Below are positions 2,564 to 53,858 of a stretch of 64,000 bases of DNA, piece by piece. Source of the stretch: a virus. Made by a program: the position numbers and the translations under genes. The DNA lies in IMG/VR virus record IMGVR_UViG_3300032296_003307, positions 186,001-250,000 of that record, one strand, 5' to 3'. Each line of letters begins with the position of its first letter. The first letter of the stretch is position 1. The notes below the pieces were generated by a model, which worked only from the letters and a program-made list of their open reading frames with translations, searched no databases and was not told the DNA's origin.

Positions 2564-3682
2564 ATGAAAGATAATTTAGCAAAAGAAGCACTTAAAAGAA
2601 GTCTTCTTCTTATGAAGTACGATACGTCAAAAACCTTGACAGAAAATGAGGTTAAAACAAATAAAAGATTACTAATGGAAGGTCCTGAAGAAAGTATACG
2701 TAAAGTATTAGGTGCGTGTGCTAATAGACCCGCAAGAGAAGGAACTTTAAATGATGCCGAAATTGCGGGTGGGTTTAACCAAGCCTTTAATTACGAGACG
2801 TTAGGGTTTCTTGGAGGTACGGATGACTCTAAAGAAACTGGTTGGAGAAAATACGCTGAGATGATGAAAGTTGGTAATTTGGATGATTTGTGTAATATTA
2901 ACAACAGATTTAAAGAAGCAGGGTACGGTGAATTTGCCAGTGAAATTATTGACGATTTGGATGACGAAGAAATGTCTGAATTGGTTACTGTTTTTGACAT
3001 GATGAAACGTAAAACAGACAAAGAGGCTCGATTGTCTGTTGACAACACAGAACAAATGACGATTGATTTTTGGAAAAAACAGTATAGTTGTGTTTTTGTA
3101 AATGGTGATAACGTGGATAGTCAACCAAGACAAGATAGAAATAACCAAGTATATATCCTTATAAAGGGTAGTTCAGGTGATGTCTATAGATTGTATACCG
3201 AAGGTAGATTAAAGAAAGACAGTTCTACGGATGAAAAATTATTACCTGTTAGATTAAAATGTGCAAATGACGGCTCTACTGTTGTTGAATCTGTGTTGTC
3301 AAAAAAAAAACATTTAAGAGAATTTGATGATACCAAAATTAAAAATCCTAACAAACCATCACCAACACCAACAGGAGGAGGTGGTGGAGGCGGCGGAGGC
3401 GGCGGAGCGACTTATGACCAATCCGTAGCAAACCTACAACAACAACTCCTAAATTATGGTTTTTATCTCGGAACTTCAGGACCAAAAAAAGATGGTGTCG
3501 ATGGTATAAGAGGTTCAAAAACAAATGCAGCACAACAAGCATTTAGTAACGGAGAAAAATGTGGTGATTACAACAAAAAGAATAACTACCCAAATCCTGC
3601 AACATGTAAAGATGGCGGTGATGGCGGAACACCAAAACCACAAGACCAAGAAATAAAAATGATAGACCCAAGTACATTCTAA
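2564..3682 (+). CDS. Predicted virion protein with C-terminal peptidoglycan-binding domain
   Basis: 372 residues. Residues 1-45 form a Lys/Leu-rich helix ending RLLMEG, an (L/I)xE|G site like the capsid-protein cleavage site. The middle is unrecognised. A poly-Gly tract near residues 270-280 acts as a hinge. The last ~90 residues look like a PG_binding_1 domain (VANLQQQLLNYGFYLG, DGVDGIRGSKTNAAQQAF), which binds cell-wall peptidoglycan. TATTTATA (2546-2553) precedes the ATG by 10 nt. The next gene starts 1 nt after the stop, so they are cotranscribed. A role in entry or lysis is inferred; no catalytic domain was seen. Confidence 0.7.
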   Translation: MKDNLAKEALKRSLLLMKYDTSKTLTENEVKTNKRLLMEGPEESIRKVLGACANRPAREGTLNDAEIAGGFNQAFNYETLGFLGGTDDSKETGWRKYAEMMKVGNLDDLCNINNRFKEAGYGEFASEIIDDLDDEEMSELVTVFDMMKRKTDKEARLSVDNTEQMTIDFWKKQYSCVFVNGDNVDSQPRQDRNNQVYILIKGSSGDVYRLYTEGRLKKDSSTDEKLLPVRLKCANDGSTVVESVLSKKKHLREFDDTKIKNPNKPSPTPTGGGGGGGGGGGATYDQSVANLQQQLLNYGFYLGTSGPKKDGVDGIRGSKTNAAQQAFSNGEKCGDYNKKNNYPNPATCKDGGDGGTPKPQDQEIKMIDPSTF

Positions 3683-3683
3683 A

Positions 3684-4727
3684 ATGAAAAATAAAAGATT
3701 AATTAAAGAGCAAACCGTGTCAGGTTTAGATAAGTTTTTTTATCCTGGTTGTTTTACTGCGGGCGATGCGGATACCGACCCAACAATGGCAGCAAAAACA
3801 ACAATTACTATAAACCAAGTAAAAACACCCGCTATCAAGAAAAAAAATAGCCAAGGTAAGATGGTTTATTATACCGAAAATGGTAAGGCATATACTTTAG
3901 AAAATGGAACAATGACTTACATGAGTGATTGGTCTTGTAAAGACGCCCCAGGAAAAGCAACCGCCAATCCTGCGGTTACTTATTTTAATAAATTAGGTTT
4001 AGATTTAACTCAACCTAGTGCAATAATGGATATTAATGATGCGATTCGTGAAATATCATTAGCGGTTAAAAATGGTGGAACAGGAAAAGATATTAGAAAC
4101 TTTATCTACTATGTTAAACAATTAAAAAAAGACCCGACATATGCAACAGAAATAGAATCCGTTACTGAAACACCTGACGGTCCTATTGAGGCTCAATTTG
4201 AGGCTCAAATGGGTAGAAAATGGGTATTTGCTGACCCTGCGGACACTGAAATGCCAAGGTTCACCAAAAAAACAATGAAGGTTGGAAACAGTGGAATCAC
4301 ATATTATTCATGGAACGCCGGTCGTACTGTAACCAAGGCGGCAAGTCAATACAGTTCAACAGAGTGTTATCAGTTTTTAACTGACTATATTGATAGAGTT
4401 GACAGGGGGGAAATTTCAAACATCGATGAATTGGGTGCCGAAAAACAAACCCTATTTGCATGTTACAATCCATTTTGGTATGATAATAAGTTGAATGACG
4501 AAAATAGAACTGGCACCAGAGAATTGGGTGTAAAAGGAAAACAAAGAAGATATTTGGAAAAACTTCTACCACAATTACTGCAGTCAAGAGGTGAAACAGG
4601 TGTTGGATTTGGAGATGGAACTCAAAAAGGTAGAGCTTTACAGTACGAATCTTTAGAATCAAGACTAAGAAAGGCTCTTTTTGAAGCGGTAGATTTAAAA
4701 AAAAAGAGATTATTGAAGAAGAGATAA
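3684..4727 (+). CDS. Predicted virion protein; 5' part of a probable -1 frameshift pair
   Basis: 347 residues. It starts MKNKRLIKEQ, with an IKE|Q cleavage-type site, and continues with a Gly/Thr-rich body of unknown fold. Near the 3' end a run of nine A (4697-4705) is read AAA AAA AAG, so it holds the classic A_AAA_AAG slippery heptamer. The zero frame stops six codons later (4725-4727), while the -1 frame stays open through helical sequence (EIIEEEIIKNRFSFLIDE) into the next ORF. This is either a programmed frameshift or a homopolymer error. Confidence 0.7.
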   Translation: MKNKRLIKEQTVSGLDKFFYPGCFTAGDADTDPTMAAKTTITINQVKTPAIKKKNSQGKMVYYTENGKAYTLENGTMTYMSDWSCKDAPGKATANPAVTYFNKLGLDLTQPSAIMDINDAIREISLAVKNGGTGKDIRNFIYYVKQLKKDPTYATEIESVTETPDGPIEAQFEAQMGRKWVFADPADTEMPRFTKKTMKVGNSGITYYSWNAGRTVTKAASQYSSTECYQFLTDYIDRVDRGEISNIDELGAEKQTLFACYNPFWYDNKLNDENRTGTRELGVKGKQRRYLEKLLPQLLQSRGETGVGFGDGTQKGRALQYESLESRLRKALFEAVDLKKKRLLKKR

Positions 4728-4762
4728 TCAAAAATAGATTTTCTTTTCTTATTGACGAATCG

Positions 4763-5445: not shown

Positions 5446-6045
5446 ATGTTATTAAATGAATCTAAGTGGGATGCTCCTGTGCGTAAGATGGTACGTGACC
5501 TTGTAACTATTATTAAAAAAGATGACACGGGTAGTTGGATGTTACCATCTGAAATATCAGATGAGGACGAATATTCATTTCATAACGTACCAGGATTTCA
5601 AATATATTTTGATTGGGATTACGAGTATAATTTAGAAGAACCATATTATTTAAATGGTGATTACGACAATGATACTGACACAATGAATATTGTTTTGTTT
5701 ATTAATCCAAAATACTTCCCACAAACTATGTATGATATTGTTGCTGATTTAAATGATATTGTTAGGCACGAGTTAGAGCATCATTTACAAGAATGGGGAT
5801 ATGAAGAAGGTGAAGAAACGGGTAAAACAAATAAGTTAGGAATAAATTACTATCTTAAGAAGATGGAAATTCCTGCAGAAATTAAAGGTTTTAGACGGAT
5901 TGCTAAACTTAGAAAACAACCAATAGAAAAAGTCATTACAGATTGGTTTGAAAGACATAAAAATATCCACAAGTTTTCGGAAAAACAATTAAAAAAATTA
6001 ATTCCTATACTTGTGGATTACTATAACAAATACTACCCTAATTAG
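5446..6045 (+). CDS. Putative zincin metallopeptidase, predicted head-packaged
   Basis: 199 residues. RHELEHHLQ near residue 110 is an HExxH zinc site, and the downstream MEIPAEIKGF offers the Glu usual in zincins of phage origin. The N-terminus MLLNESKW has an LNE|S cleavage-type site, consistent with processing by the prohead protease. TATTTATA (5434-5441) ends 4 nt before the ATG. It may cleave a host protein or cell-wall peptide after delivery (inferred). The exact family is uncertain. Confidence 0.7.
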   Translation: MLLNESKWDAPVRKMVRDLVTIIKKDDTGSWMLPSEISDEDEYSFHNVPGFQIYFDWDYEYNLEEPYYLNGDYDNDTDTMNIVLFINPKYFPQTMYDIVADLNDIVRHELEHHLQEWGYEEGEETGKTNKLGINYYLKKMEIPAEIKGFRRIAKLRKQPIEKVITDWFERHKNIHKFSEKQLKKLIPILVDYYNKYYPN

Positions 6046-7552: not shown

Positions 7553-9190
7553 ATGAAATTGCTCTACGAAGGTAGGAAGGAAAATGTATTTAACAAATAC
7601 AGAAAAAAAATTGAAAAAGAACGAAAGTTAAACTCAAAGGTAGAGGAAACTTCTTTTTATGACCTATTGGTTGATGAAAATTTTATGCGTGAAACCGATT
7701 ATGCGTACTTGGATGATTTGTTGGCGTTATATTATAAAACAAATGCATTTACCGACTATGACAATATATACGATGTTGAACCAAATTCTTGGGATAGTGC
7801 CAACGATTTAATTAATTATAATGTTGGTCTTATACAAATGTTAATACCAAATTTGAGGTTTTTTCATCAAAATAAAGATAGGTTTGAAAATAGACAAATA
7901 AGAAACTACCATAATTTTGCCGAGTTCATGGATGTTGCCAGTAATCTGATGAACACACCAAGTAAAAAACAAGAGAAAAAATCATTAAAAAGTGGTAGTG
8001 TTAACATTTATAATTCAGATGACGTTAGTGTTGTAAAACCAATGACCCATGAATCGTCTTGTTATTATGGTAGTGGTACCAAGTGGTGTACCGCATCCAA
8101 AACATCATCTACCCATTTTGATAGATATTCCAAGATGGGTAATCTGTATTATGTTTTTCTAAAAAGGTACGAAAACAACAACAAATATTATAAAGTAGCT
8201 ATTCAAACGTATTTTGATTCTCCTTTTGATGGTGCGGTTTTTTGGAATGCTGAGGATAATACTATGACCAAGAACGAAGAAGAATTATTCAAAATGGTTA
8301 TACCTCAAGACGCGATGACCGCAATTAAAAATGATTTTGAAAGAACAAGACCAAATTTGATTAGCAAAATTTATGAAAAAATACAAAAATTACCTGACAA
8401 TAGTGGTGAATCGGCTATAATTACCACATACAACACATCAAAAGGTAGAGGTAAAATCATTATGACCATGTCAGGTTTTGATTGGGACATGGAAGATTCC
8501 GTTGAAGGAGAACAACCAATTATTTTTGGAACTTCAAGAATGCAAATTATTGATTCAAACGATAAAAAGGGAAATAAAGTTTTGGATTCGGTCTATCTAA
8601 TGATATCAATTTATCAAACAACCTCTCAATATTATACAACAACAGTTACTGTGGATATGTTTATTGATAGTGATTTATCAGTTCAAATGGAAAAAGATTA
8701 TTTTGATTATTGGAATAATGAAAAAAGTGTGAGATTTGACGTAACATCTTTGGATTTAGTTGGAAGAATAATAAGAAATATTCAGCTAAGTGTAATAAAT
8801 GAATATCGAAAGGCTTATTACGCAGAAAACACAAAAAATCTTGTAGATTATTTACTTAACACATACAATTACGAATACGCCAACTTTGGTCATGGTTATA
8901 CTTTACAAAAAGGTGGAAAACTTACCAAAAGGTTTGTTGAATATATGAAAAACAAGGGGGATGAGGAAGTGGTAACTAAAGTTCAGGTTCTACAAGATTT
9001 GGGAATACTTAAAAAATCTGAAGATGGTAAAACTTGGTTTAACTCAGCGGGTCGACCAATATCAATACAAGGATATTATTCGTCATTTTTCTCCGCAATG
9101 AATGCGTCAGGTATTACAAAGAGAGCCACAAAATCAGGATTTACAAAAGGTCCTAAGTTTGAAAAATATTTGAAAAAATATGATTTGTAA
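7553..9190 (+). CDS. TKWC-motif protein, predicted head-packaged (paralogue of 28878-30710)
   Basis: 545 residues. Signature SSCYYGSGTKWCTASK near residue 165, followed by HFDRYSKMGNLYYVFL. A second protein in this window has ACYYGRNTKWC in the same position, so they are paralogues with two invariant Cys. The N-terminus MKLLYEGRKE has an LYE|G cleavage-type site. TATTTATT (7541-7548) ends 4 nt before the ATG. The conserved Cys, Lys and Trp could form a catalytic or metal site, but I do not recognise an enzyme class. Possibly delivered with the DNA. Confidence 0.7.
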   Translation: MKLLYEGRKENVFNKYRKKIEKERKLNSKVEETSFYDLLVDENFMRETDYAYLDDLLALYYKTNAFTDYDNIYDVEPNSWDSANDLINYNVGLIQMLIPNLRFFHQNKDRFENRQIRNYHNFAEFMDVASNLMNTPSKKQEKKSLKSGSVNIYNSDDVSVVKPMTHESSCYYGSGTKWCTASKTSSTHFDRYSKMGNLYYVFLKRYENNNKYYKVAIQTYFDSPFDGAVFWNAEDNTMTKNEEELFKMVIPQDAMTAIKNDFERTRPNLISKIYEKIQKLPDNSGESAIITTYNTSKGRGKIIMTMSGFDWDMEDSVEGEQPIIFGTSRMQIIDSNDKKGNKVLDSVYLMISIYQTTSQYYTTTVTVDMFIDSDLSVQMEKDYFDYWNNEKSVRFDVTSLDLVGRIIRNIQLSVINEYRKAYYAENTKNLVDYLLNTYNYEYANFGHGYTLQKGGKLTKRFVEYMKNKGDEEVVTKVQVLQDLGILKKSEDGKTWFNSAGRPISIQGYYSSFFSAMNASGITKRATKSGFTKGPKFEKYLKKYDL

Positions 9191-11800: not shown

Positions 11801-13018
11801 ATGAAGGATTTAATCAAAAAATTATTACGAGAAGCCGTTGGTGTTCCCGCAAACATTGACGTTGCCGCTGAAAATCTATACAACGCCCTTATATCAAAAG
11901 CCAAAAACGCCACCCCCGAAGAATTAGAAAAAGGTTTTGTCTTTCTAAATCGTTCAGGAAAATATAATATCGCCGATTTTAAACCAAAAAAAATAATATT
12001 AAGTGTTCGTTTTGGTGAATTTCCTTTAGACAATAACGATAACCTAACAGGACCCGTAGTGCCTGGTATGCAAAATTATTTAGATGCGAAAGTAACCGAA
12101 AAATTTAAAATTACAAACATAGATACCGACCAAATTAAATTAAAAATTACTTTTGCGGTTCCTGAAGGTTTTGGTAATATCCAAGGTTCGGATTTTGTGA
12201 ACACTCTGATAAAAGATAAAGCAACACTTTTACCTTCTTTGGCTCACGAATTAATGCACGCTTATAACAACACAAAATATAAAGGTGAAGATATTGGTGC
12301 AAGAGCCGAATACGGACAAAAGTCAAATTTAAGAGTTGGGTTAAGACCTATGGACCATTTTATATATGGTCTTTACTTGATTCACAACATTGAAAATATT
12401 GTTAGACCAACAGAGGTGTTTACTAGTTTAAAAGGAACTGATAAAAAAGAATTTCTAAAAAATTTTCAAAATTTAAAAATTGTTAAAGAATTGATGGAAT
12501 ACAGAAATTATAGTTTGGAAGATTTAAAAAATGGGTTAAAGTCCAATATTAAATCTGTTAATGCGTTTTTAAAGGGGGTTAAAAATTACCCAACTAAACC
12601 AAAGACAGATGATGAAAAAGTAAATGCGGTGTTAGATATTGTTCATAATATGTTTATAAGCAATGTTTCTTCTGAAATAAAAAGAATGCAAAGAATGGGA
12701 CAAGCCGCAGCGGCTCAAAACCCGTTTGACATTTTCAGAGCGATGTTTTCAGGATTGGGAATAACTAGCGATGATTTTGAAAAAATCAGAAAAAGGTCGT
12801 TGAAATTTGGTGACGATTATGAAAGTTGGTATAAATATGAAATAAAAAAAATGAATAAGGCGGCGGATGAAGTTATTAGAAAAGTATCCAAAGTTTATTC
12901 ATTAATGGGTGAAGAGAAAAAAATACAAACCTTTGAAATATTTGACCCATCAAGTTTTGAGATGGACCAACTTTATAGAAAATTAAAAAAACGCTCAAAT
13001 ATTGAGATAAAGAAATAA
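11801..13018 (+). CDS. Putative zincin metallopeptidase, predicted head-packaged
   Basis: 405 residues. LAHELMHAYNN (about residue 146-156) is an HExxH zinc site, with candidate third ligands in the following GARAEYG. The N-terminus MKDLIKKLLREAVG is a short amphipathic helix ending LRE|A, the same type of site as in the capsid protein. TATTTATT (11789-11796) ends 4 nt before the ATG. This is the second HExxH protein in the window with such a terminus. Target unknown. Confidence 0.7.
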   Translation: MKDLIKKLLREAVGVPANIDVAAENLYNALISKAKNATPEELEKGFVFLNRSGKYNIADFKPKKIILSVRFGEFPLDNNDNLTGPVVPGMQNYLDAKVTEKFKITNIDTDQIKLKITFAVPEGFGNIQGSDFVNTLIKDKATLLPSLAHELMHAYNNTKYKGEDIGARAEYGQKSNLRVGLRPMDHFIYGLYLIHNIENIVRPTEVFTSLKGTDKKEFLKNFQNLKIVKELMEYRNYSLEDLKNGLKSNIKSVNAFLKGVKNYPTKPKTDDEKVNAVLDIVHNMFISNVSSEIKRMQRMGQAAAAQNPFDIFRAMFSGLGITSDDFEKIRKRSLKFGDDYESWYKYEIKKMNKAADEVIRKVSKVYSLMGEEKKIQTFEIFDPSSFEMDQLYRKLKKRSNIEIKK

Positions 13019-18282: not shown

Positions 18283-18372
18283 AGCCGAGTGGTGTAAGTG
18301 GGAATGAATACCACCTTGGGAAACATCTCTATTTTAGATAGGGGGACACGGGTTCGAATCCCGTCTTGGCTA
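18283..18372 (+). tRNA. Type II tRNA (Ser-sized, 90 nt), anticodon unclear
   Basis: Acceptor AGCCGAG/CTTGGCT, T-arm ACGGG-TTCGAAT-CCCGT, CCA encoded (18373-18375), and a CTCTA...TAGGG stem. Length fits Ser, the only amino acid without a canonical tRNA here, but no Ser anticodon falls in a normal loop. Confidence 0.55.
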
Positions 18373-20314: not shown

Positions 20315-20867
20315 TCAAAAATTTTGTTTCATTTTCACTTAGATTTGTAACAAAATTTTTGATACTTTCTTGTTGGACTTCGCCAATCTCCCACACTTCA
20401 TCAACATCTTCATCATTAACATCACTATCGTGATAATCGGTATCAACCAAATCACCGTAGTCATCTATGTATCCTTCACTTATTAGATAAAGTAGATTTG
20501 CCTCTAATTGAGTTGAATCCATAAAATAACCGTCAATTTCTTGTTCATAATATTTTGTGGACCATTCAGATTCATCTCTTTTGATGCGAGCGCCAAATGT
20601 TTTTTTAACAGGTACTTTCATGCTGTCTACCGTTAATGTGTCATCTTCTAAACGTTCTTTGTTTTCCGCCATCATGTTGTACCAAAAAAACATATCATCC
20701 ATGTCTTCAGAGTTGGCATTTATTAACTTACCTCGTTTTTGTAAAAAATAATCAAAATCAGATTCACCCAAATCCCCATAAAAATCATCAACACTGGCAT
20801 CCCCGTAGTCTTTTTTCCAAAGATTGAATAAGGTTTTTAATTCTCTAAATAATTGTTCTTTATTCAT
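20259..20867 (-). CDS. Uncharacterised acidic helical protein
   Basis: 202 residues, helical and acidic. The ATG shares its last base with the stop of the GH19 gene, so it is translationally coupled to it. The C-terminus (LSENETKFLIKKLLSNHR) is an amphipathic helix reminiscent of the packaging-type termini of neighbours. Convergent 56-nt overlap with 19691-20314. Confidence 0.6.
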   Translation of the reverse strand: MNKEQLFRELKTLFNLWKKDYGDASVDDFYGDLGESDFDYFLQKRGKLINANSEDMDDMFFWYNMMAENKERLEDDTLTVDSMKVPVKKTFGARIKRDESEWSTKYYEQEIDGYFMDSTQLEANLLYLISEGYIDDYGDLVDTDYHDSDVNDEDVDEVWEIGEVQQESIKNFVTNLSENETKFLIKKLLSNHRLGHPKSKSR

Positions 20868-21661
20868 TACGCAGTTGTTGCAATATCAAATTTTGGATTC
20901 ATAGCCAATGCGGCTTTTCTTGACCAATCTGACCTTCTATTTCCGGCGTTTATATCTGTAAAATAAATTGTTGCTGATTCTTTATCTTTAAAATCAGGTA
21001 ATTTTTTTGGGTCTTTACCATTCAAGAAAAATGAGATGGCAACTTTTGCAGATATTTCCGGTTTTTCCAATAATTCAGGATTGTTTTCCAAATCCACGCC
21101 CGCTAATTTACCGTAGTGTCTATAATTTGCTCTTCCGGTAATTCCATTTAAACCACGCCCAACATATTTCCACCCATCACCTGGTTGAGTATTTCCCAAT
21201 GGAACACCCGAATCCTTACCGTACACACAATCAAAAAACTTTGGGTCATCACATTTTAAAGATTTGCACTTGGTCCCTCTAGCACCAAAAATACTAACAA
21301 TTCTACTATCACTTGTGGTACAATAACCAAATTCTTTAACAGCAACAAATCCTGATTCTTTACCAATAACAGATAAAATACCAATCTGTGCATATGGGTT
21401 TGTAATACCCATTTTTTCCATTTCTTGGATAGTCATATCGACCATTTTTGCGGCTTGACCTGAATAACTGTGTTTAATTTTTCCTGTTATTTTATTTTTT
21501 CCGATTGATTCGTTTTCTTTTGTTGATGGTGATGTTCCTCCACTATTGTTAGAAAATCCAAACATTTTTTTCGCCATACCCAACAAACTATCTTCAGGTT
21601 GTTCGTTGACACTCATGAGTTCTCTAACTCTATTTACTTCTTCAATAAGATTTTGTCTCAT
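20867..21661 (-). CDS. GH19 chitinase-like lysozyme, predicted head-packaged
   Basis: 264 residues. Residues ~70-250 match GH19: GKESGF with catalytic Glu, then YVGRGLNGITGRANYRHYGK and NPELLEKPEISAKVAISFF. This family in phages cleaves peptidoglycan. The N-terminus NLIEEVNRVRELMSVNEQ is the EEVxRxxELM module also seen at the C-termini of 25041-25823, 24383-25039 and 27070-27699, ending in VNE|Q. CTATTTATTGTT precedes the ATG on the minus strand. Probably a virion-associated rather than a late lysis enzyme (inferred). Confidence 0.8.
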   Translation of the reverse strand: MRQNLIEEVNRVRELMSVNEQPEDSLLGMAKKMFGFSNNSGGTSPSTKENESIGKNKITGKIKHSYSGQAAKMVDMTIQEMEKMGITNPYAQIGILSVIGKESGFVAVKEFGYCTTSDSRIVSIFGARGTKCKSLKCDDPKFFDCVYGKDSGVPLGNTQPGDGWKYVGRGLNGITGRANYRHYGKLAGVDLENNPELLEKPEISAKVAISFFLNGKDPKKLPDFKDKESATIYFTDINAGNRRSDWSRKAALAMNPKFDIATTA

Positions 21662-24093: not shown

Positions 24094-24402
24094 ATGAAAC
24101 AAAAAATTAATAAACTCGGTGCTTTGGTATCTGTAATGATATGGTTTGTTCTTATAACCATCTTAGGTATCTTTTTGACTTCTTGTGGTAAGCCAAAGAA
24201 CAGGATTGAAAAAGGTGATATTGTTCAGAAGTGTCAGATTGATTCTATTAATGTTTTACCACAGCATTCAACAATCGAACCTGACAGGAAGTGTGAATAT
24301 TTTACAAGTTGTGGAAGTAGAATTGTGTCACATGAAGGCGCTTTCAGGGTTGGTGATACTGTGACTTACGTATATAAGAAATCTAATAGTCAGAAAAACT
24401 GA
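24094..24402 (+). CDS. Lipoprotein, function unknown
   Basis: 102 residues. N-terminal hydrophobic segment (VSVMIWFVLITILGIFL) ends in lipobox LTSC, so it is a predicted lipoprotein. The mature part has three more Cys (KCQ, KCEYFTSCG). Could alter the host envelope or block superinfection (guess). Its 3' end overlaps the convergent gene by 20 nt. Longer in-frame extension through tRNA-Pro is rejected. Confidence 0.7.
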   Translation: MKQKINKLGALVSVMIWFVLITILGIFLTSCGKPKNRIEKGDIVQKCQIDSINVLPQHSTIEPDRKCEYFTSCGSRIVSHEGAFRVGDTVTYVYKKSNSQKN

Positions 24403-42246: not shown

Positions 42247-44019
42247 ATGGCAATAACTAAAGAACAGTTACTTTTAGAGAAAGCGAGATGTATTAAAAGT
42301 ACATACTACGCACTTAAAACGTACTTACAAACTTACGACAACACACAATCAAAATATGTTCCGTTGGAACTATTTCCTGACCAACAAAGGTTAATTGAAG
42401 ATTATGATAAATATAACGAAAACATTGCGTTAAAGTATCGTCAGGCGGGTGTGTCTACGGTAACCGCCGCTTGGGTGTCTAAAAAATTAGTCTTCGCTAA
42501 TTCACAACAACCTGAAAAAATATTGATAATCGCCAACAAGCTTGACACCGCAGTGGAAATGGCAAACAAAGTTAGAGAATTTACCGAACAATGGCCCAAG
42601 TGGTTGAATGTTGGTTTTTCTCCTGAAAAAAATGCAGCAAGACATTTTAAGTTAACAAATAAGTGTGAAGTAAAAGCGGTGGCAACATCAAAAGACGCAC
42701 TTCGTGGTTATACCCCAACCATACTTATATTTGATGAGGCGGCTTATATAGACGCTGACGATGATTTTTGGGCGGCTTGTATGGCATCACTTTCCACAGG
42801 TGGTAAAGTGATTGTAATTTCAACCCCAAACGGATATGACCCAATTTATTACAGTATTTACGAACAAGCAAACAAAGGGGTTAACGAATTTAAAATTTCC
42901 GACATGTATTGGTACCGTGACCCAAGATACACGAGGGATTTATACATGGTAAAAACAGAAAGTTTGGTTGATTATCTATTAGATAGAAACAATTTTCCAA
43001 ACACAGAAATACTGGATTTAAGTGGTAATCCATTTGAAAGGGATATTGAAAAGGTTCAAGAGTTAATTTCCCAAGGGTACAAACCATGTTCGGCTTGGTT
43101 CGAATCCATGGTTAAAAAACTTAAATTTGACAAAAGAAAAATATCACAGGAATTAGAATGTAATTTTTTGGGTTCAGGTGATAACGTATTTGATTCTAAT
43201 TTGCTTCACAAAATTTCCGAAACTATGATAAAAGAACCGTCATCAAAAATGATGACAAATAGTTTGTGGATTTGGAAAGAACCTATTATGGGTCACAAAT
43301 ATGTTATGGGTGTCGACGTATCTCGTGGCGACTCTGAAGACTTTTCATCAATCCAAATTATCGATTTTGATGAAAGAGAACAAGTATTGGAGTATGTTGG
43401 AAAAACACCTCCTGATATGTTGGCTGAAATTGCCTACAAATGGGCTACTATGTATTCGGCGTATATTGTAGTCGATATTACCGGTGGTATGGGGGTTGCC
43501 ACATCAAGAAAACTACAAGAACTTGGATATAGGGATTTATATGTTGATGGTGTTGAAATGGGAAATAAATGGAAATACGACCCAAAGACCGCTGATAAAA
43601 TACCTGGCATCAACTTCAATTCTAAACGTGTTCAAATTATCAGTTCGTTTGAAGAAGGAATTAGACATGGTTTTAAAATCTATTCATTAAGATTATTGAA
43701 TGAAATGAACACGTTTGTTTATATAAATGGAAGACCCGACCACATGAAAGGTCAGCATGATGACTTGTTAATGAGTTTGGCAATGGCGATTTATGTAAGT
43801 GAAATGTCATTCACTCAATTGAAAAAAGTGGACGATTTAACAAAAGTTATGTTAGAATCTTGGACAGTAAATAAACACGATAATTCCGCAATAACCGATT
43901 TTAATCCAAATATACCGGTATTTGTTAATGACGATAATAAGAATATTTTTAGAAATCAACCGACAAGACAAGATTATCAAGATTATAGATGGGTCTTCGG
44001 AGGAATGGGGTTTAAATAA
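42247..44019 (+). CDS. Terminase large subunit (T4 gp17-like)
   Basis: 590 residues. ATPase domain: KYRQAGVST (residues 63-71) is the Walker A variant of gp17 proteins; LIFDEAAYID is Walker B with catalytic Glu; VISTPNG is the coupling motif. Nuclease domain: VMGVDVSRGDSEDFS, VDITGGMG and HDDLLMSLAMA provide the RNase H-like acidic metal site. It powers DNA packaging into the prohead and cuts the concatemer. First of the T4-order head genes. Confidence 0.95.
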   Translation: MAITKEQLLLEKARCIKSTYYALKTYLQTYDNTQSKYVPLELFPDQQRLIEDYDKYNENIALKYRQAGVSTVTAAWVSKKLVFANSQQPEKILIIANKLDTAVEMANKVREFTEQWPKWLNVGFSPEKNAARHFKLTNKCEVKAVATSKDALRGYTPTILIFDEAAYIDADDDFWAACMASLSTGGKVIVISTPNGYDPIYYSIYEQANKGVNEFKISDMYWYRDPRYTRDLYMVKTESLVDYLLDRNNFPNTEILDLSGNPFERDIEKVQELISQGYKPCSAWFESMVKKLKFDKRKISQELECNFLGSGDNVFDSNLLHKISETMIKEPSSKMMTNSLWIWKEPIMGHKYVMGVDVSRGDSEDFSSIQIIDFDEREQVLEYVGKTPPDMLAEIAYKWATMYSAYIVVDITGGMGVATSRKLQELGYRDLYVDGVEMGNKWKYDPKTADKIPGINFNSKRVQIISSFEEGIRHGFKIYSLRLLNEMNTFVYINGRPDHMKGQHDDLLMSLAMAIYVSEMSFTQLKKVDDLTKVMLESWTVNKHDNSAITDFNPNIPVFVNDDNKNIFRNQPTRQDYQDYRWVFGGMGFK

Positions 44020-44045: not shown

Positions 44046-45863
44046 ATGAGCGATAATTTAACAATATGGCAAAGGCTGAGTCAGACATTTGGTCCTGATT
44101 CACTTCTTGGTCAAGATTCACCAGTATACAAATACGATAAGAAAGAATTACTTAGAACTACAGATAGAGCTCAATATGAGTTAGAAAAACTACAGGCACA
44201 ACAAACTGCGTTTCTATCTAATCAATGGGCGAAGATTGAAAACAATCTGTATCAACAAGCCGTATATTACGAACCAACAAGACTTTCTGCGTTTTATGAC
44301 TACGAAAGTATGGAATATACTCCTGAAATTTCTGCGGCGTTAGATGCGTACGCCGAAGAATCTACTACTGTAGATGAAGATGGTTACATGTTACAGATTT
44401 ATTCCGAATCAAAAAGAATAAAATCAATATTAACCGATTTGTTTAACAATGTAATGGACATTAACACCAACTTACCTATGTGGACAAGAAACACATGTAA
44501 GTATGGTGATAATTTTGTGTTCTTAAAATTGGACCCTGAAAAAGGAATTGTGGGTTGTTTCCAACTACCTAATATTGAAATGGAGCGTATTGAGAGAGGT
44601 ATGACACCACAAACAGTGGCAACCGCAGAGAACGAACAAAAAGCCCTTAAGTTTGCGTGGAAGAACAAACAAATGGAATACCAATCTTGGGAGGTTGCTC
44701 ACTTCCGTTTATTGGGTGACGATAGAAGATTGCCTTACGGAACATCTATGTTGGAAAAAGGAAGAAGAACATGGAAACAGTTAGTATTGGCTGAGGACGC
44801 AATGTTAATTTACAGAACATCAAGAGCACCTGAAAGACGTGTATTCAAGGTTTACGTTGGTAACATGGATGACAAAGACGTTCAACCATATGTTCAAAAA
44901 TTTGCAAACAACTTTAAAAGAGACCAAGTTACCGATTCAAAAACAGGTAACGTAGACATGAGATTTAACCAAATGGCGGTTGACCAAGATTATTTTGTAC
45001 CTGTACGTGACCCTGCCGCGCCAAGTCCAATCGATACTTTACCAGGAGCGCAGAACTTGGCAGAAATTGCTGATATTGAATACATTCAGAAAAAATTATT
45101 AACCGCATTAAGAATTCCTAAAGCGTTTTTAGGTTTTGAAGAAGTTGTGGGTGACGGTAAGAATTTGTCTTTGTTAGATATTCGTTTTGCTCGTACAATT
45201 AACAGAATACAAAAATCCATGATTGCAGAACTTAATAAAATAGCAATTATACATTTATTCTTGTTAGGGTTCGAAGATGAATTAGGTAACTTTACTTTAG
45301 GGTTGACAAACCCATCTAAACAGGCAGACTTGTTAGCGATTGATGTTTGGAAAGAAAAAATGTTACTTTATAAAGATGCGGTAACACCAATTGAAGGTAT
45401 TGCACCAACATCACAATCTTGGGCTAAAAAACATATACTTGGTTTTTCTGACGATGAGATAAAATTAGATTTACAACAACAAAGATTAGAAAAGGCAGTT
45501 TCTGCTGAACTCACAAATACCGCAACTGCAATTCCAAAAACAGGTTTATTTGATAATGTTGACAAACTGTACGGTCAACTTAGCGGTAAAACAGGTGGAG
45601 CGGTTCCAACACCGGGAGCGGAATTAGGTGGAGCACCTCCTGATTTAGGTGGCGGAGCACCACCACCACCTCCGCCTCCACCTCCTCCTGGTGGTGAGGA
45701 ACTTGCTGCGGGTGGCGGAACGTTACCCGAAGAGAAAATGGATAAAATAAACATTCTATTGGAAGGAGACTTTTTGACCCCAAATGATTTCTTAGATTTG
45801 GGTAAAGCTAAAAATTCTCTGAATGAAATGGATGACGAATTAAACAGAATATTAAAATCGTAA
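44046..45863 (+). CDS. Portal protein (T4 gp20-like)
   Basis: 605 residues. YTPEISAALDAYAEESTTVDEDG, NMDDKDVQPYVQKFANNFKR and RFARTINRIQKSMIAELNKIAIIHLF are typical of gp20-family portals. The C-terminus has a Gly/Pro tract (poly-Pro near residue 545) then an LLE helix. Forms the dodecameric DNA gate at one head vertex. Follows the terminase by 26 nt behind a TATTTAA-type box. Confidence 0.92.
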   Translation: MSDNLTIWQRLSQTFGPDSLLGQDSPVYKYDKKELLRTTDRAQYELEKLQAQQTAFLSNQWAKIENNLYQQAVYYEPTRLSAFYDYESMEYTPEISAALDAYAEESTTVDEDGYMLQIYSESKRIKSILTDLFNNVMDINTNLPMWTRNTCKYGDNFVFLKLDPEKGIVGCFQLPNIEMERIERGMTPQTVATAENEQKALKFAWKNKQMEYQSWEVAHFRLLGDDRRLPYGTSMLEKGRRTWKQLVLAEDAMLIYRTSRAPERRVFKVYVGNMDDKDVQPYVQKFANNFKRDQVTDSKTGNVDMRFNQMAVDQDYFVPVRDPAAPSPIDTLPGAQNLAEIADIEYIQKKLLTALRIPKAFLGFEEVVGDGKNLSLLDIRFARTINRIQKSMIAELNKIAIIHLFLLGFEDELGNFTLGLTNPSKQADLLAIDVWKEKMLLYKDAVTPIEGIAPTSQSWAKKHILGFSDDEIKLDLQQQRLEKAVSAELTNTATAIPKTGLFDNVDKLYGQLSGKTGGAVPTPGAELGGAPPDLGGGAPPPPPPPPPPGGEELAAGGGTLPEEKMDKINILLEGDFLTPNDFLDLGKAKNSLNEMDDELNRILKS

Positions 45864-45874: not shown

Positions 45875-46582
45875 ATGAACTTCGGAGAAAAATTTAGTAA
45901 AATAGAGTTTTTGTTGTCAGAATCTTACGTTAACAAAAACTTAAAAAATGATATCAAAAAATTCCAAAAATTAGTTTTGGAAAATAAAAACGTTGCAAAA
46001 ATGTATTTTTTGTATTCGGAGCTATCTAAACAACAAGGATTTGATAAGAATTTTGCTGAAGATTTTATTACGGAATCTCTTTCACAAATTAAAGATTTAT
46101 CATCTAAAACAAACTTCAAATCAATCAATCCTTGGATTTCTAAAGTTGTTTGTGAGAATAGATATTCTGATATAGATAATTTGATAAACAATGACCCTCT
46201 GAAATTAAAAGAAAAAATATTAGCAAAATCAAAAATAGTTGAGTCGTTGACCAAAAAATCAATTCAAAAAGAAAGTGTTAATATTCCTTTAAGTTCAGTT
46301 GAGGTTATCAGAAAAAATGTGGTAAAAAACTATATCGATTCATTAGATGAATCCACTCAGAATAGTTTAAAAAATCTTTTATCTAAAGACGACAAAGAAT
46401 TAAAAAATTTATTTGAAGATGTTAAGTCAAAAACTTTAGATAAATTAATGGTCGTTTCTGAAGGTAACCACGACGAACTTACCAAGAACAAAATCAACGA
46501 AACTATTACGCATGTTAAGAAAGAAGAGTACAACAAATTCAACTACGTTAGATTAAAGAATCTATACGAAAATTTAGGTTGA
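45875..46582 (+). CDS. Head-module helical protein, possible prohead core component
   Basis: 235 residues, Lys/Asn/Ser-rich, almost fully helical. N-terminus FSKIEFLLSESY has an LSE|S site. Its place between portal and protease is where T4 has the small core genes 67/68, but sequence identity cannot be judged. TATTTATT (45864-45871) ends 3 nt before the ATG. Confidence 0.6.
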   Translation: MNFGEKFSKIEFLLSESYVNKNLKNDIKKFQKLVLENKNVAKMYFLYSELSKQQGFDKNFAEDFITESLSQIKDLSSKTNFKSINPWISKVVCENRYSDIDNLINNDPLKLKEKILAKSKIVESLTKKSIQKESVNIPLSSVEVIRKNVVKNYIDSLDESTQNSLKNLLSKDDKELKNLFEDVKSKTLDKLMVVSEGNHDELTKNKINETITHVKKEEYNKFNYVRLKNLYENLG

Positions 46583-47340: not shown

Positions 47341-48051
47341 ATGAAGATTTTAGGACCAAACGATACGGGGCGTGGTATTTTGATTGAGTACGATGCGGGA
47401 TACATTTCCCCAACCGAAAAACACAACCTTCATTTGATGGAGCAAATGAAGAAGGACATGTTAGATTATTCAAAACCATTTGAATTCTATGCCGTACTAC
47501 AAAAATACAACACACCAAATAGAAACGGAAGAATATATCCTGAAAGGATTTTGAAAAGAGAATCGGAAAATTATAAAAAGATGATTCAAAAAGGTACCTC
47601 TTTATCAGAGTTGAACCACCCTGAATCATCTTTAATTGATTTGGACCGTGTATCACACATTATCACTGACATTTGGTGGGATGGTATAATTTTGATGGGT
47701 AAATTAAAATTATTGACTTCGCCAGGTTTTCATGAAAGAGGTATTGTTTCAACCAAGGGAGACCAAGCGGCTAACTTACTAAGACAGGGGGTTACTTTAG
47801 GTATTTCTTCTCGTGGAGTTGGTTCGTTAAAAAAAGTAGGTGAAAGAAATGAAGTGCAAGACGATTTTGAATTAATTTGTTTTGATTTAGTATCGTCACC
47901 GTCTACACCTGGCGCGTATCTATTCTTGGACCCAAAAGAAAGAAGTAATTTTGAAGAAAATTTGGAAGAAGAAATACAAAGGAAATCGCAAGGCTCAATT
48001 GATAAATCAGTTGACTTAATGAAGAAATTAACCGATTATTTATCAAAATAA
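47341..48051 (+). CDS. Prohead protease (T4 gp21-like)
   Basis: 236 residues. RNGRIYPE, SELNHPES (catalytic His), and GISSRGVGSL (catalytic Ser) follow the gp21/peptidase U9 pattern of the herpesvirus-assemblin fold. It cleaves scaffold and N-termini after (L/I)xE during maturation. TATTTATA lies near 47325. The gene sits between core and scaffold genes as in T4. Confidence 0.9.
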   Translation: MKILGPNDTGRGILIEYDAGYISPTEKHNLHLMEQMKKDMLDYSKPFEFYAVLQKYNTPNRNGRIYPERILKRESENYKKMIQKGTSLSELNHPESSLIDLDRVSHIITDIWWDGIILMGKLKLLTSPGFHERGIVSTKGDQAANLLRQGVTLGISSRGVGSLKKVGERNEVQDDFELICFDLVSSPSTPGAYLFLDPKERSNFEENLEEEIQRKSQGSIDKSVDLMKKLTDYLSK

Positions 48052-48385: not shown

Positions 48386-50029
48386 ATGACTGAAAAAGAT
48401 TTAGTTCAGGAAGCATTACAACAAATGAAAAATTTGGAGGACGTAGTGCAAGAAAATGCAAAAGGAATACTTGGAGCAACAATGGCTCAAGAAATCTCAG
48501 AATTAGTAAAAGAGTCTTTAATTAAAGAGACTAAGAAAAAAGAGTCAATGGAACAGGATGAAGACGAAATGCCTGATGACACGGATGACATGGATGACAC
48601 TATGGATTCATTATCACCTGAAGGTGACGATGATGATTTAGGTGCTGATGATGACGACGTAGATTCGATGGGAATGTCACCTGATTCGATGATGGAACCA
48701 GAAGATGATGATGTAATTGACGCAACAGGATTAGACGGCGAAAAACTTTGGAACTTATTTAAGAAAATCGACCCTAACAAAGACCAAATTTTAGTTCAAA
48801 ATGATGGTGACAACATTCACATTAAAGATGATGAAAACGATGTTGAATACATCCTTAGAATGAACGAAAGTTATGACGATGTTTATGAAGATGATTATTC
48901 TAATGTAGATGATATTTATTCTGAAGTATTCAACGAAGACATGGGATATGATTTAGAAGAAGATGAAGACGGAATGGGTATTGAAGATGCCAATGTTGAT
49001 ATATTCAGCGAAGACATGGGATATGACCCCGAAGATTCAGAAACCGTTTACGAAATCACTATGGACGAAGAAATGGACGAGGAAATGGATGAAGACATGG
49101 GTTATGACTCAGGTGAGTTTGATGAAACCATCTATGAAATTACCATGGACGAAGAAATGGACGAAGAAATGTACGAAGAAATGGATGAGGAAATGGACGA
49201 GGAAATGGACGAAATGTACCACGATGATGTCAATGAAGCAAAATACATGATAAAACCTGTTATGGGTAAAATGAAGAATAAGGGCGAAGCTAAAGAAAAT
49301 AAAACCATGAAATCAGCAATGAGAGGTTTGAAGAAAGGTGAAACAAAAGAAGGTAATTATATGTCAAAACCAATAAAACCAACTAAACAAACCAAAGTTG
49401 ATGGATATAAAAAAGAAACTTTACCCGAAAAAGGAATCAGTAACGTTGTAAAGAAAGAAACTAAAGAAGGGTCATTTGTAACAAAACCAAAAGGTGTTGG
49501 TATGAAACCTGGACAAAAGAAATTCGAATACAAAGAAGCTGCAAGAACTTACGGTAATGGTTCTAAAGAAGGTCGTGGTTTAAGAAAAGGAATTACACCA
49601 AATAGAAATTTTGTTTATGAAAATGAAGTTTTACAACAAGAGATTGAGACTCTAAGAGAAAAAAATGAAGAGTACAGAAAAGCACTCAACGTTTTTAGAG
49701 AAAAACTTAATGAAGTTGCGGTGTTTAATTCAAACTTAGCATACGCGACTAGGTTGTTTACAGAACATTCAACATCTAAAACTGAAAAGATTAATATTCT
49801 TAGAAGATTTGATGATGTAGAAACACTTAAAGAATCTAAATCGTTGTATTCCGCTATTAAAAACGAGTTGTCACAAACAACAAACAATAAAGTTGTTACA
49901 GAATCTATCGAAAGAAAGATTGAAAAAACAGCATCAACAGGCTCAGCAACTAATTTGATTGAGTCTAAAACTTACGAAAATCCTCAGTTTTTAAGAATGA
50001 AAGATTTGATGGGTAAGTTACAAAAATAA
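48386..50029 (+). CDS. Prohead scaffold / core protein (T4 gp22-like by position)
   Basis: 547 residues. Highly acidic first half with MDEEMDEEM-type repeats, basic linker (KPIKPTKQTK), and a C-terminal coiled coil (VLQQEIETLREKNEEYRKAL ... REKLNEVAVFNSNLAYATRLF) like gp22 scaffolds. Lies between protease and capsid genes. Expected to fill the prohead and be degraded. TATTTATT sits near 48356. Confidence 0.8.
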   Translation: MTEKDLVQEALQQMKNLEDVVQENAKGILGATMAQEISELVKESLIKETKKKESMEQDEDEMPDDTDDMDDTMDSLSPEGDDDDLGADDDDVDSMGMSPDSMMEPEDDDVIDATGLDGEKLWNLFKKIDPNKDQILVQNDGDNIHIKDDENDVEYILRMNESYDDVYEDDYSNVDDIYSEVFNEDMGYDLEEDEDGMGIEDANVDIFSEDMGYDPEDSETVYEITMDEEMDEEMDEDMGYDSGEFDETIYEITMDEEMDEEMYEEMDEEMDEEMDEMYHDDVNEAKYMIKPVMGKMKNKGEAKENKTMKSAMRGLKKGETKEGNYMSKPIKPTKQTKVDGYKKETLPEKGISNVVKKETKEGSFVTKPKGVGMKPGQKKFEYKEAARTYGNGSKEGRGLRKGITPNRNFVYENEVLQQEIETLREKNEEYRKALNVFREKLNEVAVFNSNLAYATRLFTEHSTSKTEKINILRRFDDVETLKESKSLYSAIKNELSQTTNNKVVTESIERKIEKTASTGSATNLIESKTYENPQFLRMKDLMGKLQK

Positions 50030-50063: not shown

Positions 50064-51947
50064 ATGGGAGCATTATTAGATTCAGGTCTTGTAGGTAACA
50101 TTGGTCTTAAGCATCTTAAGGTTATCAAAGAAGACACTATTAACAAATGGGATAAACTAGGTTTCTTAGAAGGTCTAAGAGGTCACTTAAAAGAAAATGT
50201 TGCGCAGTTGTACGAAAACCAAGCGTCTTTCTTAATTAACGAAGCGGCTTCAACCACAGATTCAGGTTCTTTTGAAACAGTTGTATTCCCAATCGTGAGA
50301 AGAGTATTCTCTAAACTTTTGGCTAACGACATCGTTTCTGTACAAGCAATGAACTTACCTATCGGTAAATTGTTCTACTTTGTACCTAAAATTCAAGGTT
50401 ACTCAGGTGGTACTTTGACATCTCCAGCATGGGGTGATGCACAATCAGGTCAGCACTACGCACCAATGGGGTCTCCAGGAAACTACCCAGGTAATCCTGA
50501 TTCAGGTTATTTGGCGGCAGACAGCACAGGTGACTACAATCCTTACTACAAGAAAAATCTTTACGATTTATTCTATGAAGGTAACGAAGCTGACTTGGAC
50601 CCTCCAGGGTTGTTTGACTACTCTAAAGGTAGATGGTCCGCAATCACTTCAACTACTTTGACTCAGAGATGGGTTGGTAGCAACTTAGTTGATTGGGGTG
50701 TAAGTGCTAGCACAGAATATAGAAAAATTATTCTTAAGATGTGTGGATTTGCTGATACAGGCGCAGGTAAATTAATCGGTCCTAACGGTAACGAAATGGA
50801 CACTGAAGAATTCTTGGCTAGTTTACAAATCAGAACTTTGAAATCTGCAGGTTCTTCAGGAACAGGTTCTTTCTCAGGTCTTTCTATGTCAGACATCAAT
50901 GGTGTTTCTAACCCATTGTTATTCAGAGTTGTAACTCAAATCTACGGTCAAGGTATTGTACAGTACGGAGGTTACGCATCAACTTCATGGGCTTCTACAG
51001 GTTCAGGTGGAAAATTCTGGAATACTTGTGACGCTAACGGTTGTATTTACTTGGAAGTTGATTTACAACAACCAGTATGTATTGATTGTGCAACTAACTC
51101 ACTTGATGGTTACTCAGGTTACACTACAGGTGGTGAAGGGTTAGCACCTGACGCTTCATTCTTCGCAGTATTTAGAAGATATGAAGAGTTAGAATTTGAA
51201 GATAAAATTGGTGAAGTTTCTTTTGATTTGGAATCTGTAACAGTTTCCGTAACTGAAAGAAAATTGAGAGCTCAGTGGTCTCCTGAATTAGCACAGGACG
51301 TTGCAGCATTCCATAACATCGACGCTGAGGCTGAATTAACAGCTTTATTGTCAGAACAAATCGCGGCTGAAATCGACAGAGAAATCTTAAGAGATTTGAG
51401 AAAAGGTGCGGCTTGGAACTTAAGATGGGATTACAACGGATGGAAGAGACTTTCTCAGACTACATCATACACACAAAAAGATTGGAACCAAACTTTGATT
51501 ACCGCAGTTAACCAAATCTCAGCACAGATTCACAAATCTACTTTGAGAGGTGGAGCTAACTGGATTGTTGTGTCTTCTGAAATTAGTGCAATTTTTGATG
51601 ATTTGGAATACTTCCACGTGTCAAACGCAGCACCTGAACAGGACCAATATAACATGGGTATTGAAAGAGTAGGTACTTTGGCAGGTAGATACCAAGTTTA
51701 CAGAGACCCTTACTTCCCAGCTAACCAAGTGTTGTTGGGTCACAAAGGAACATCTTTGTTAGACACAGGTTACATATACGCACCATATGTACCTCTACAA
51801 TTAACTCCAACAATGTATAACCCATTCAACTTCACACCTATCAAGGGTATCATGACAAGATACGCTAAGAAGATGGTTAACAACCGTTTCTATGGTAGAA
51901 TTACAGTTGACGGCGTAAGAACATTTGACTTGAGAGAATTGAGATAA
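50064..51947 (+). CDS. Major capsid protein (T4 gp23-like)
   Basis: 627 residues. N-terminal NKWDKLGFLEGL...ENVAQLYENQASFLINE|AAS has the gp21 cleavage site (INE|A, after residue 60). The C-terminus IERVGTLAGRYQVYRDPYFPANQVLLGHKG...GYIYAPYVPLQ is the gp23 HK97-fold signature. Forms head hexamers after N-terminal trimming. Codon use looks more optimised than neighbours. Terminator follows. Confidence 0.95.
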   Translation: MGALLDSGLVGNIGLKHLKVIKEDTINKWDKLGFLEGLRGHLKENVAQLYENQASFLINEAASTTDSGSFETVVFPIVRRVFSKLLANDIVSVQAMNLPIGKLFYFVPKIQGYSGGTLTSPAWGDAQSGQHYAPMGSPGNYPGNPDSGYLAADSTGDYNPYYKKNLYDLFYEGNEADLDPPGLFDYSKGRWSAITSTTLTQRWVGSNLVDWGVSASTEYRKIILKMCGFADTGAGKLIGPNGNEMDTEEFLASLQIRTLKSAGSSGTGSFSGLSMSDINGVSNPLLFRVVTQIYGQGIVQYGGYASTSWASTGSGGKFWNTCDANGCIYLEVDLQQPVCIDCATNSLDGYSGYTTGGEGLAPDASFFAVFRRYEELEFEDKIGEVSFDLESVTVSVTERKLRAQWSPELAQDVAAFHNIDAEAELTALLSEQIAAEIDREILRDLRKGAAWNLRWDYNGWKRLSQTTSYTQKDWNQTLITAVNQISAQIHKSTLRGGANWIVVSSEISAIFDDLEYFHVSNAAPEQDQYNMGIERVGTLAGRYQVYRDPYFPANQVLLGHKGTSLLDTGYIYAPYVPLQLTPTMYNPFNFTPIKGIMTRYAKKMVNNRFYGRITVDGVRTFDLRELR

Positions 51948-52256: not shown

Positions 52257-52934
52257 ATGTCTAACAAAAAAACAATATCAGAGATAACGGGCACGGGCGG
52301 TTCAGGTTCTTTCAAAATTCCTTTGAATTTGGCACCTAGAATGTGGACAAAAGAACAGATGGGTGCGTTTACAGAACCAGTATCACACTACTTAAACCCA
52401 AACGTCGCATATGATAGTTATGACGGGACATTAAAAATGAGTAAACAGGAAATAAACAAACAAGAAAAAAAGGCTAAAAAAATGGCTAATTTTATGAAAA
52501 AAATTGAAAACGAGTTACCAAAGGGGACTCCTAAGTACATACAAACCCAAGCTAATTTACCCAAAGACGAATATAAACCCGTACTACAAGAAGATTTAGC
52601 GGTTTGGTTCGGTAAAAAGAAAAAAGGTAAAGGTAGCTCCCAACCACAAGGACCATGGGTTAATATTTGTAGAAAAAAAGAAGGCGGTGGTCATCCACCT
52701 TGTGGCAGACCAGATGCCGACCCTAAAGGATACCCAAAGTGTAGAGCTGCCGGAGTGGCGGCAAAAATGACAGATTCGCAAAAAAAATCCGCATGTGCTC
52801 AAAAAAGAAGAGAAGAAAAAAAGGACACACAATCAGGTAAAGGTCAAAAACCGGTTATGACCTCATACAAACCTAAAAATGAATCTTTAAGAGAAATTAT
52901 TGTTTCTATTCTTAGAGAAGAAACTTCTATTTAA
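52257..52934 (+). CDS. DUF5872-like Cys motif protein, predicted packaged
   Basis: 225 residues. WVNICRKKEGGGHPPCGRPDADPKGYPKCRAAGVAAKM is a Cys-rich domain recurrent in phages (DUF5872-like), followed by Lys-rich sequence. The C-terminus ESLREIIVSILREETSI is a packaging-type helix with LRE. TATTTATT (52236-52243) lies upstream. Role unknown. Confidence 0.65.
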   Translation: MSNKKTISEITGTGGSGSFKIPLNLAPRMWTKEQMGAFTEPVSHYLNPNVAYDSYDGTLKMSKQEINKQEKKAKKMANFMKKIENELPKGTPKYIQTQANLPKDEYKPVLQEDLAVWFGKKKKGKGSSQPQGPWVNICRKKEGGGHPPCGRPDADPKGYPKCRAAGVAAKMTDSQKKSACAQKRREEKKDTQSGKGQKPVMTSYKPKNESLREIIVSILREETSI

Positions 52935-53337
52935 TATTATCCGAAATAGTTTTAAGTGAGTGCTTAATGTTTGAAGTTATTTCGCTTTCAAATTTTTGTC
53001 TTCTTGTTTCTAACTCCGTATTAAATAAATTAGTAACCACCTCTATACCTTTTCCTTCTATTACTAAAGAATAACTATAAACGTGATTAATTATGTTTAC
53101 ATGCCTACCCTCAATAATTACATATATATCTAATTCATCATTTCTTATATACCTTTTGTTTGATAAGGGCGTTATTAATAACGTAGTTTGTTCTAATGGT
53201 ATTAGTTTTTTACATATTTCAACACATTGACGTTCGTGTTGACTTTTAACCAATCTTGTTGGGTCACTAATTTTGTGTAGTTTAATCCCTTGTTTCTGTA
53301 CAAACCTTTTTAGTTTGTGAAGTATATTTCTTGACAT
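52927..53337 (-). CDS. Uncharacterised protein
   Basis: 136 residues. Basic N-terminal helix (HKLKRFVQKQGIKLHKI), a central beta region (ELDIYVIIEGRHVNIINHVYSYSLVIEG), and a C-terminal helix. Convergent 8-nt overlap with the preceding gene. No family recognised. Confidence 0.55.
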   Translation of the reverse strand: MSRNILHKLKRFVQKQGIKLHKISDPTRLVKSQHERQCVEICKKLIPLEQTTLLITPLSNKRYIRNDELDIYVIIEGRHVNIINHVYSYSLVIEGKGIEVVTNLFNTELETRRQKFESEITSNIKHSLKTISDNIK

Positions 53338-53378
53338 ATGTTTAAAAACAAATGTAAATATAAGATAAAAAAATTAGA

Positions 53379-53858
53379 TTAACAATATGTACCTGAACAT
53401 CTTTTTTTTCCATCTAAACCAGGCATTTTTCCTTTACATACTTGAACCGCATATCCGTTTGCGTAAGCCGAAGGGTATACGTCAAATTTGGCTTTAGCTG
53501 CAGATTTACCTCTTGCACATAACTTAGTGCCTGTTTTTTTTCTACCCTCAGTCATAGTATCAATCATTTGGTCATCCATTTCTTCATCATCGGAACCTTC
53601 CGTTTCATTCATTAAAAAATCAAATACTTGGTCCATATTGTTTTTTGCTTCGGCAATATGGTCTTGAGCCCAATCATGACCATTATCTAAAATACCTTCA
53701 ATTACGGATTTATCCATATCAAGAAGTATTTCGCACTGTCTTTTCATTTGTTCTAAATTGGAAAAAAACATATACCTGTTTGATTCTACACCACCACCTT
53801 CATTAAGAAGTTTATTTATTATTCTTTTTAAATCGTTTTCTGATAATTTTGTTCTCAT
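53379..53858 (-). CDS. Predicted packaged protein with Cys-rich C-terminus
   Basis: 159 residues. N-terminus LSENDLKRIINKLLNEGG is the packaging-type helix ending LNE|G. C-terminal KLCARGKSAAKAKFDVYPSAYANGYAVQVCKGKMPGLDGKKRCSGTYC is a short domain with four Cys found in many phage genomes. Its start overlaps the tail gene's stop by 4 nt. Confidence 0.7.
   Translation of the reverse strand: MRTKLSENDLKRIINKLLNEGGGVESNRYMFFSNLEQMKRQCEILLDMDKSVIEGILDNGHDWAQDHIAEAKNNMDQVFDFLMNETEGSDDEEMDDQMIDTMTEGRKKTGTKLCARGKSAAKAKFDVYPSAYANGYAVQVCKGKMPGLDGKKRCSGTYC

Follow-up and report, generated by a model that had tools for sequence, protein, structure and literature searches.

Interchangeable terminal tags with a conserved glutamate site on a large predicted set of head cargo proteins in Bacteroidota T4-like phages

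Comparison with described head-cargo systems

The propeptides of the internal proteins of phage T4, 10-19 residues in length, target these proteins to the head and are cleaved (PMC9026906). Here we describe termini of a similar kind in a stretch of 64,000 nucleotides of viral DNA (the window), which comprises bases 186001-250000 of the 268,739-base record IMGVR_UViG_3300032296_003307 (G000). The initial annotation had proposed that a large set of unrelated proteins in this DNA share short termini with a glutamate site, are packaged into the head, and are trimmed there by a gp21-like protease. We conclude that these termini, hereafter called tags, are likely to represent a greatly expanded capsid-targeting-sequence system of the T4 type, located at either protein terminus and probably trimmed by the Peptidase S77 of the phage. 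Each near-complete genome has about 40-47 strongly tagged proteins; the set is larger than had been supposed, and C-terminal tags form part of it. Window proteins are named below by their first coordinate (Table 1); in motifs, a slash marks the candidate bond, and P1' is the residue that follows Glu.

The T4 internal proteins IPI-III and Alt likewise combine a short terminal peptide with an S77 protease and a T4-like head, and Alt is processed at both of its ends (PMC9026906), just as tags occur here at either terminus. T4 has only a handful of cargo proteins. Unlike the T4 internal proteins, the proteins described here carry many interchangeable tag designs with P1' often Gln, and their cleavage is predicted only. 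In phage P1, the N-terminal 30 residues of DarB suffice for packaging a reporter, but the Dar proteins lack a consensus sequence (PMC9024508), whereas here one consensus is found on 97 clusters of protein bodies among the matches listed. Giant phages of the SPN3US/phiKZ type also build large virions in which head proteins are numerous, and from some of these proteins a prohead protease removes an N-terminal propeptide. They belong to a different giant-phage lineage, and most of the nine substrates found have propeptides of 111-254 residues (PMC10052503). The part of the record that holds the window belongs to the Bacteroidota T4-like jumbo phages that encode bS21. In the freshwater representatives, bS21 lies on the reverse strand within the head module (Chen et al. 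2022, PMC9723584), and the window has a bS21-like gene in the same arrangement; text searches of that article found no terminal tags and no packaged cargo. No account of such tags was found in the open-access literature, subscription papers and preprints being outside the search.

Unrelated proteins carry interchangeable tags

The commonest tag design reads MKK[IV][VI][RK]LTESDLxR[IL]VKRV[IL]xE. A DNA pattern covering the first 12 residues of this design was run against virus records; at least 120 stretches matched, and 80 loci of these were used for clustering. Among the matches listed, this design starts 140 distinct proteins, and 139 bodies were distributed over the 97 clusters. Amino-acid identity between tags was 70%, and 42% of the identical residues were encoded by different codons, which implies selection at the level of the peptide. 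Further designs include MNLQExIxRIL[KR]E, MKIIITESQ, and MxxRFIITExEKKxILGLY, as well as short ones such as MIKLLEVLNE/S, whose length is near that of the T4 tag. The N-terminus of protein A_153 of the related genome G001 seems to bear tags in tandem, MNLQQTIRKILREE...NLQETVRKVLREK. A tag was also present on a 164-kb contig (L404) from a Bacteroidota metagenome-assembled genome, probably a binned phage. A tblastn search of cultured phages with the bare 23-residue tag gave no match, which is hardly informative given the shortness of the query.

Orthologous bodies were found to carry different tags while retaining the last Glu. In the family of protein 53379 (g335), [LIVM]xE precedes the body in each of the 24 orthologues whose body start could be aligned. 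The segments ahead of the body follow several designs of 14 to 30 residues, all with hydrophobic-x-Glu, and E20 was the sole invariant tag column in an alignment of 23 sequences. An AlphaFold2 (AF2) model of this protein placed a helix at residues 7-19, followed by residues 20-27 with a predicted local distance difference test score (pLDDT) below 50, where the cut would be expected; with a mean pLDDT of 63, the helix/linker layout is only indicative. One HExxH protein had three tags in three phages, MKKTFLYKEQINDLVLKVLCE/S, MNLQEQIRRILKE/E, and MKIIITESQYKLLLE/A, and g206/A_172, g174/A_176, and g287/B_031 are further tag-swapped pairs. The exchange extends to the other end of the protein: the tag-like helix of 52257 is C-terminal, and in several relatives it is N-terminal. 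In C-terminal tags the Glu site precedes the helix, on the body side. Tag swapping and the occurrence of one design on so many body clusters support the view that the termini are conserved, modular, and interchangeable tags on unrelated proteins, in agreement with the common type of terminus that had been proposed.

Frequency of the tags relative to chance

The strict pattern was defined as [LI]xE[AGSQN] within the first 34 residues. In the whole record it was present in 89 of 336 proteins, compared with 35±5 in shuffles and 35±4 in interior windows, an excess of ~10 standard deviations. The excess peaked at 120-165 kb of the record, beyond the window (40/74 versus 8.5±2.7). Related genomes gave 68 versus 34±6 (G001) and 60 versus 31±5 (G002) in shuffles. 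TE-box tags, scored on the first 12 residues, occurred in 21 of 75 proteins of the peak region versus 0.9±0.9 (~23 times expectation), in 36 of 346 proteins of G001 (3.9 expected), and in 24 of 299 of G002 (3.3 expected). Genes shared with the lineage of phage immuto had strong tags no more often than by chance (3/98; shuffles, 1.6), as opposed to 75 of 547 unshared genes (shuffles, 10.7). An unsupervised motif search of N-termini returned first the start Met and then a helix motif, and was less informative than the anchored patterns.

Within the window, 14 of 67 proteins matched the strict pattern (7.2±2.3 in shuffles) and 13 matched a second pattern (7.6±2.4), so that chance would account for about half of the bare matches there. 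All ten short-terminus Glu sites listed in the initial annotation lie in open frames. Comparative support was strong for 53379, 45875, 5446, and 11801, and likewise for 2267, which is not among the ten; 3684 and 7553 had little or none. As for the TKWC proteins, which had been counted among the tagged cargo, the sites in 7553 and 28878 are present, but the family, with several paralogues per genome (phrog_17056), is not uniformly tagged.

Glutamate sites of the head module and a match to the scaffold tail

The window encodes the gp21-like protease and the capsid protein with an INE/A site that the initial annotation had recognized. The maturation site LINE/A of the capsid protein was identical in 81 of 81 sequences. 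In ten genomes, LIE/S of the scaffold precedes the last 20-21 residues, a C-terminal helix. All 8 tag-picked records longer than 145 kb encode both S77 and gp23, as do 7 of the 19 shorter ones tested, among the matches listed.

Two tags of a cultured sister phage, immuto (NC_055915), copy the C-terminal end of its own scaffold. These tags, MKKQILSEQFRRMQKLAGIITE/S on gp083 (YP_010114600.1) and MKKQILSEQFKRMQFLAGIITE/S on gp230 (YP_010114453.1), both N-terminal, match the scaffold end VSEQVSRWQKLAGIIK, and the best score, 49, exceeded all 400 shuffled tails (0/400). The best match also exceeded all 400 shuffles in two other genomes of this lineage, three genomes altogether. Tags with the LAG core were absent from the head-module flanks of 80 immuto-type loci (0/802), indicating that the cargo genes are located elsewhere. 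The N-terminus of the T4 scaffold gp22, MLKEQLIAEA, is close to a T4 internal protein propeptide, which is a partial parallel only.

Proposed function and alternative explanations

The sequence comparisons support a function like that of the T4 capsid-targeting system. A basic amphipathic helix, about 10-25 residues long, would bind a partner in the prohead core, at a site probably also used by the terminal helix of the scaffold itself, and would thereby load the tagged protein ahead of DNA packaging. After closure of the shell, the gp21-type S77 protease would most likely cut behind the Glu that ends the helix, freeing the mature protein within the head for delivery together with the DNA. One body could bear any of several designs, N- or C-terminally, and unrelated bodies could share one.

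Several findings weigh against this interpretation. The P1' residues of the cargo (mostly Q, E, T, K) are unlike the invariant Ala of the capsid protein and Ser of the scaffold; compared with these residues of the same phage, Ala is found in 11801 and Ser in several proteins, and Gln, Glu, Thr, or Lys in most. Many tags hold two candidate sites, LTE/S and IxE/Q, and together with the P1' mismatch this means that the cut bond could be either. The co-occurrence of S77 and tags is partly shared ancestry. Copying of the scaffold tail in the lineage of the window itself was tested and is not claimed, the match in G002 being not significant (183/400 shuffles). Three sets of the immuto lineage (G000 at 0-113 kb, G038, and G041) were without a strong scaffold-tail match.

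An alternative that we regard as rather improbable is that the tags target the prohead without a cut at the last Glu, either because this residue caps the helix or because only the canonical LTE/S within the longer tags is cut. P1' at the TE-box is Ser in 114 of ~140 tags (11.6-fold), as at the scaffold site, and P1' at the last Glu is mostly Q, S, E, or N. However, Gln at the latter position is 10-fold over background, and residue conservation in the commonest tag falls off past the last Glu, P1' Gln aside. In addition, tags without a TE-box still keep the last Glu (24/24), and it is there that the linker predicted by AF2 would start.

It is less probable still that the tags serve localisation or interaction in a way that has nothing to do with the head, for example by recruiting early proteins to sites of replication or to the membrane in the infected cell. 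Most tagged genes do lie at a distance from the head module, in an accessory region, and function is known for few of the proteins. Evidence against such a role comes from the resemblance between tags and scaffold tail in the sister lineage, from the same kind of site in capsid protein and scaffold, and from the head-module genes 45875 and 53379, which lie near the capsid gene and bear the same terminal helix and site.

Least credible is an origin by chance or composition, in an AT-rich genome whose N-termini are K/E/L/I-rich, for although the window excess is only 2-3 standard deviations and several listed sites are without comparative support, the composition-preserving shuffles and interior windows were exceeded genome-wide and tag identity persists across unrelated bodies despite divergent codons, which contradicts chance for the set and leaves it possible for the single sites in 3684 and 7553.

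Predicted cargo

Tagged proteins include polyphosphate kinase 2 (PPK2; 1.8e-71), an M23 peptidase, a GH108 lysozyme, peptidoglycan (PG)-binding proteins, and a GH19 protein; the tagged HExxH proteins gave no convincing family matches. The PPK2 gene, at L013:17799-18920, carries the head-type tag MWELLSEVKKMKGMMGLLKE. From these domains it is plausible that the cargo is an effector set. We go further with considerable reserve, since we are somewhat less inclined to accept than to doubt it, in suggesting that Bacteroidota T4-like phages rely on an address code that is open and interchangeable, partly copied from the terminal helix of their own scaffold, which would load at least 40 proteins per head and make the virion a delivery vehicle for a large, fast-evolving effector repertoire.

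As far as the accessible text of PMC9026906 goes, the T4 targeting peptides are described simply as having an affinity for the core. What such peptides imitate has a concrete candidate in the scaffold tail that is matched in the sister lineage. With a readable tag, head cargo could be predicted from sequence alone in many uncultured phages in which few genes have names, and candidate injected proteins for host takeover and anti-defence could be flagged. For the loading of proteins into phage heads, many natural tags would be on offer.

Genes of the window and composition of the record

Features of the window are compiled in Table 1.

Table 1. Tagged proteins and head-module genes of the window
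Feature	Coordinates	Strand	Basis and relatives
Protein with C-terminal LRE/SFIKQKNKITEMFNRIQKY	555..1865	+	Relatives: KLNE/SLDMFKRFKKYN, KLNE/SLNMFKRIIK
Small protein, ELGE/Q at residue 29, not in the initial annotation	2267..2527	+	LGE/Q or IDE/Q in all five members, itself included
Endolysin-like protein, tag MKDNLAKEALKRSLLLMKYDTSKTLTE/N...LLME/G	2564..3682	+	phrog_1493 endolysin, 1e-4
Protein with MKNKRLIKE/Q, weak case	3684..4727	+	Pattern alone
HExxH protein, short tag MLLNE/S	5446..6045	+	Orthologues LILE/T and LLLE/N
TKWC protein with MKLLYE/G, weak case	7553..9190	+	Site by pattern alone; phrog_17056, unknown function
HExxH protein, tag MKDLIKKLLRE/A	11801..13018	+	Orthologue B_031: different tag, same E/A, MGNIIITKNQLKLITE/A
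GH19 lysozyme/chitinase, tag MRQNLIEEVNRVRELMSVNE/Q	20867..21661	-	PF00182, 5e-6
C-terminal tag MTE/SMNRIKKLISFSDY	24383..25039	-	Sequence
C-terminal tag LNE/SVIRIKNLISFSDY	25041..25823	-	Sequence
Protein with C-terminal KEEVERIKELMK	27070..27699	+	Similar C-terminal tags in relatives, e.g. LNEEIERIKNLIK
Small protein, tag MEHLKKIIHESLGRVLKE/Q	28022..28378	+	Sequence
TKWC-family protein, short tag MKLFSILTE/S	28878..30710	+	Sequence; homologous to 7553
PG-binding protein, tag MPRFILTEQERKRILELYLNE/Q	31631..33037	+	PF01471, 8.7e-14
Large terminase	42247..44019	+	PF03237, E=1.4e-11
T4-like portal protein	44046..45863	+	PF07230, E=7e-78
Conserved head-module protein, FLLSE/S (E16)	45875..46582	+	LxE[SAG], residues 7-24, in 27/33 homologues
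Putative bS21-like ribosomal protein gene, inside head module	46583-46771	-	Sequence and position; homologue B_197 in G002
gp21-type prohead protease (Peptidase S77)	47341..48051	+	PF03420, E=2e-23
Acidic scaffold (gp22-like), C-terminal NLIE/SKTYENPQFLRMKDLMGKLQK	48386..50029	+	C-terminus nearly invariant, 10 genomes
gp23-like major capsid protein	50064..51947	+	PF07068, E=7e-72; maturation site LINE/A, residues 57-61
Protein with C-terminal KNE/SLREIIVSILREETSI, no evident N-terminal tag	52257..52934	+	N-terminal tag in several relatives, e.g. MNKLDQIIKKVIKE/S
Tagged protein, MRTKLSENDLKRIINKLLNE/G, LNE/G	53379..53858	-	Tag = residues 1-20 (53799-53858)

In protein 2564, LLME/G at residue 39 follows an earlier LTE/N at residue 27, a layout also seen in A_206, B_232, F_020, and H_087. 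Homologue searches found none for 3684 and 28022. The 7553 homologue A_109 has the tag MKTIIKKILKE, and at 124.7 kb the record has a tag of the same type as that of 31631, MGKRFIITEEEKKRILGLYEQ. Five homologues of the GH19 protein, including g255 of the same record, are without a tag. PDB sequence searches with 7553 and 11801 gave nothing useful, and the AF2 model of the TKWC family was too poor for a fold search (pLDDT 59).

Terminase, portal, S77 protease, and gp23 of the window were identified by Pfam, with the bS21-like gene on the opposite strand. From base 0 to ~118 kb, the gene order of the record is that of Flavobacterium phage immuto; the remainder is ordered as in phages of the bS21 type. 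Both parts contain a full head module with terminase, portal, protease, scaffold, and capsid genes, and a second gp23-like capsid protein was found in none of the other large records examined. The 268-kb record thus looks like a composite of two phages, probably joined at ~113-120 kb by misassembly or natural genome fusion. Because of this, lineage statistics were restricted to bases beyond 118 kb where so stated. Genes beyond the supplied lists of open reading frames were called with a simple custom caller.

A PADLOC search gave marginal matches only. A phage tmRNA is located at 28428-28811 on the minus strand (Rfam RF00023, 1.2e-37). ARAGORN detected 28 tRNA genes in 6045-26380, and two further ones, at 18118-18222 and 18283-18372, were detected by Rfam.

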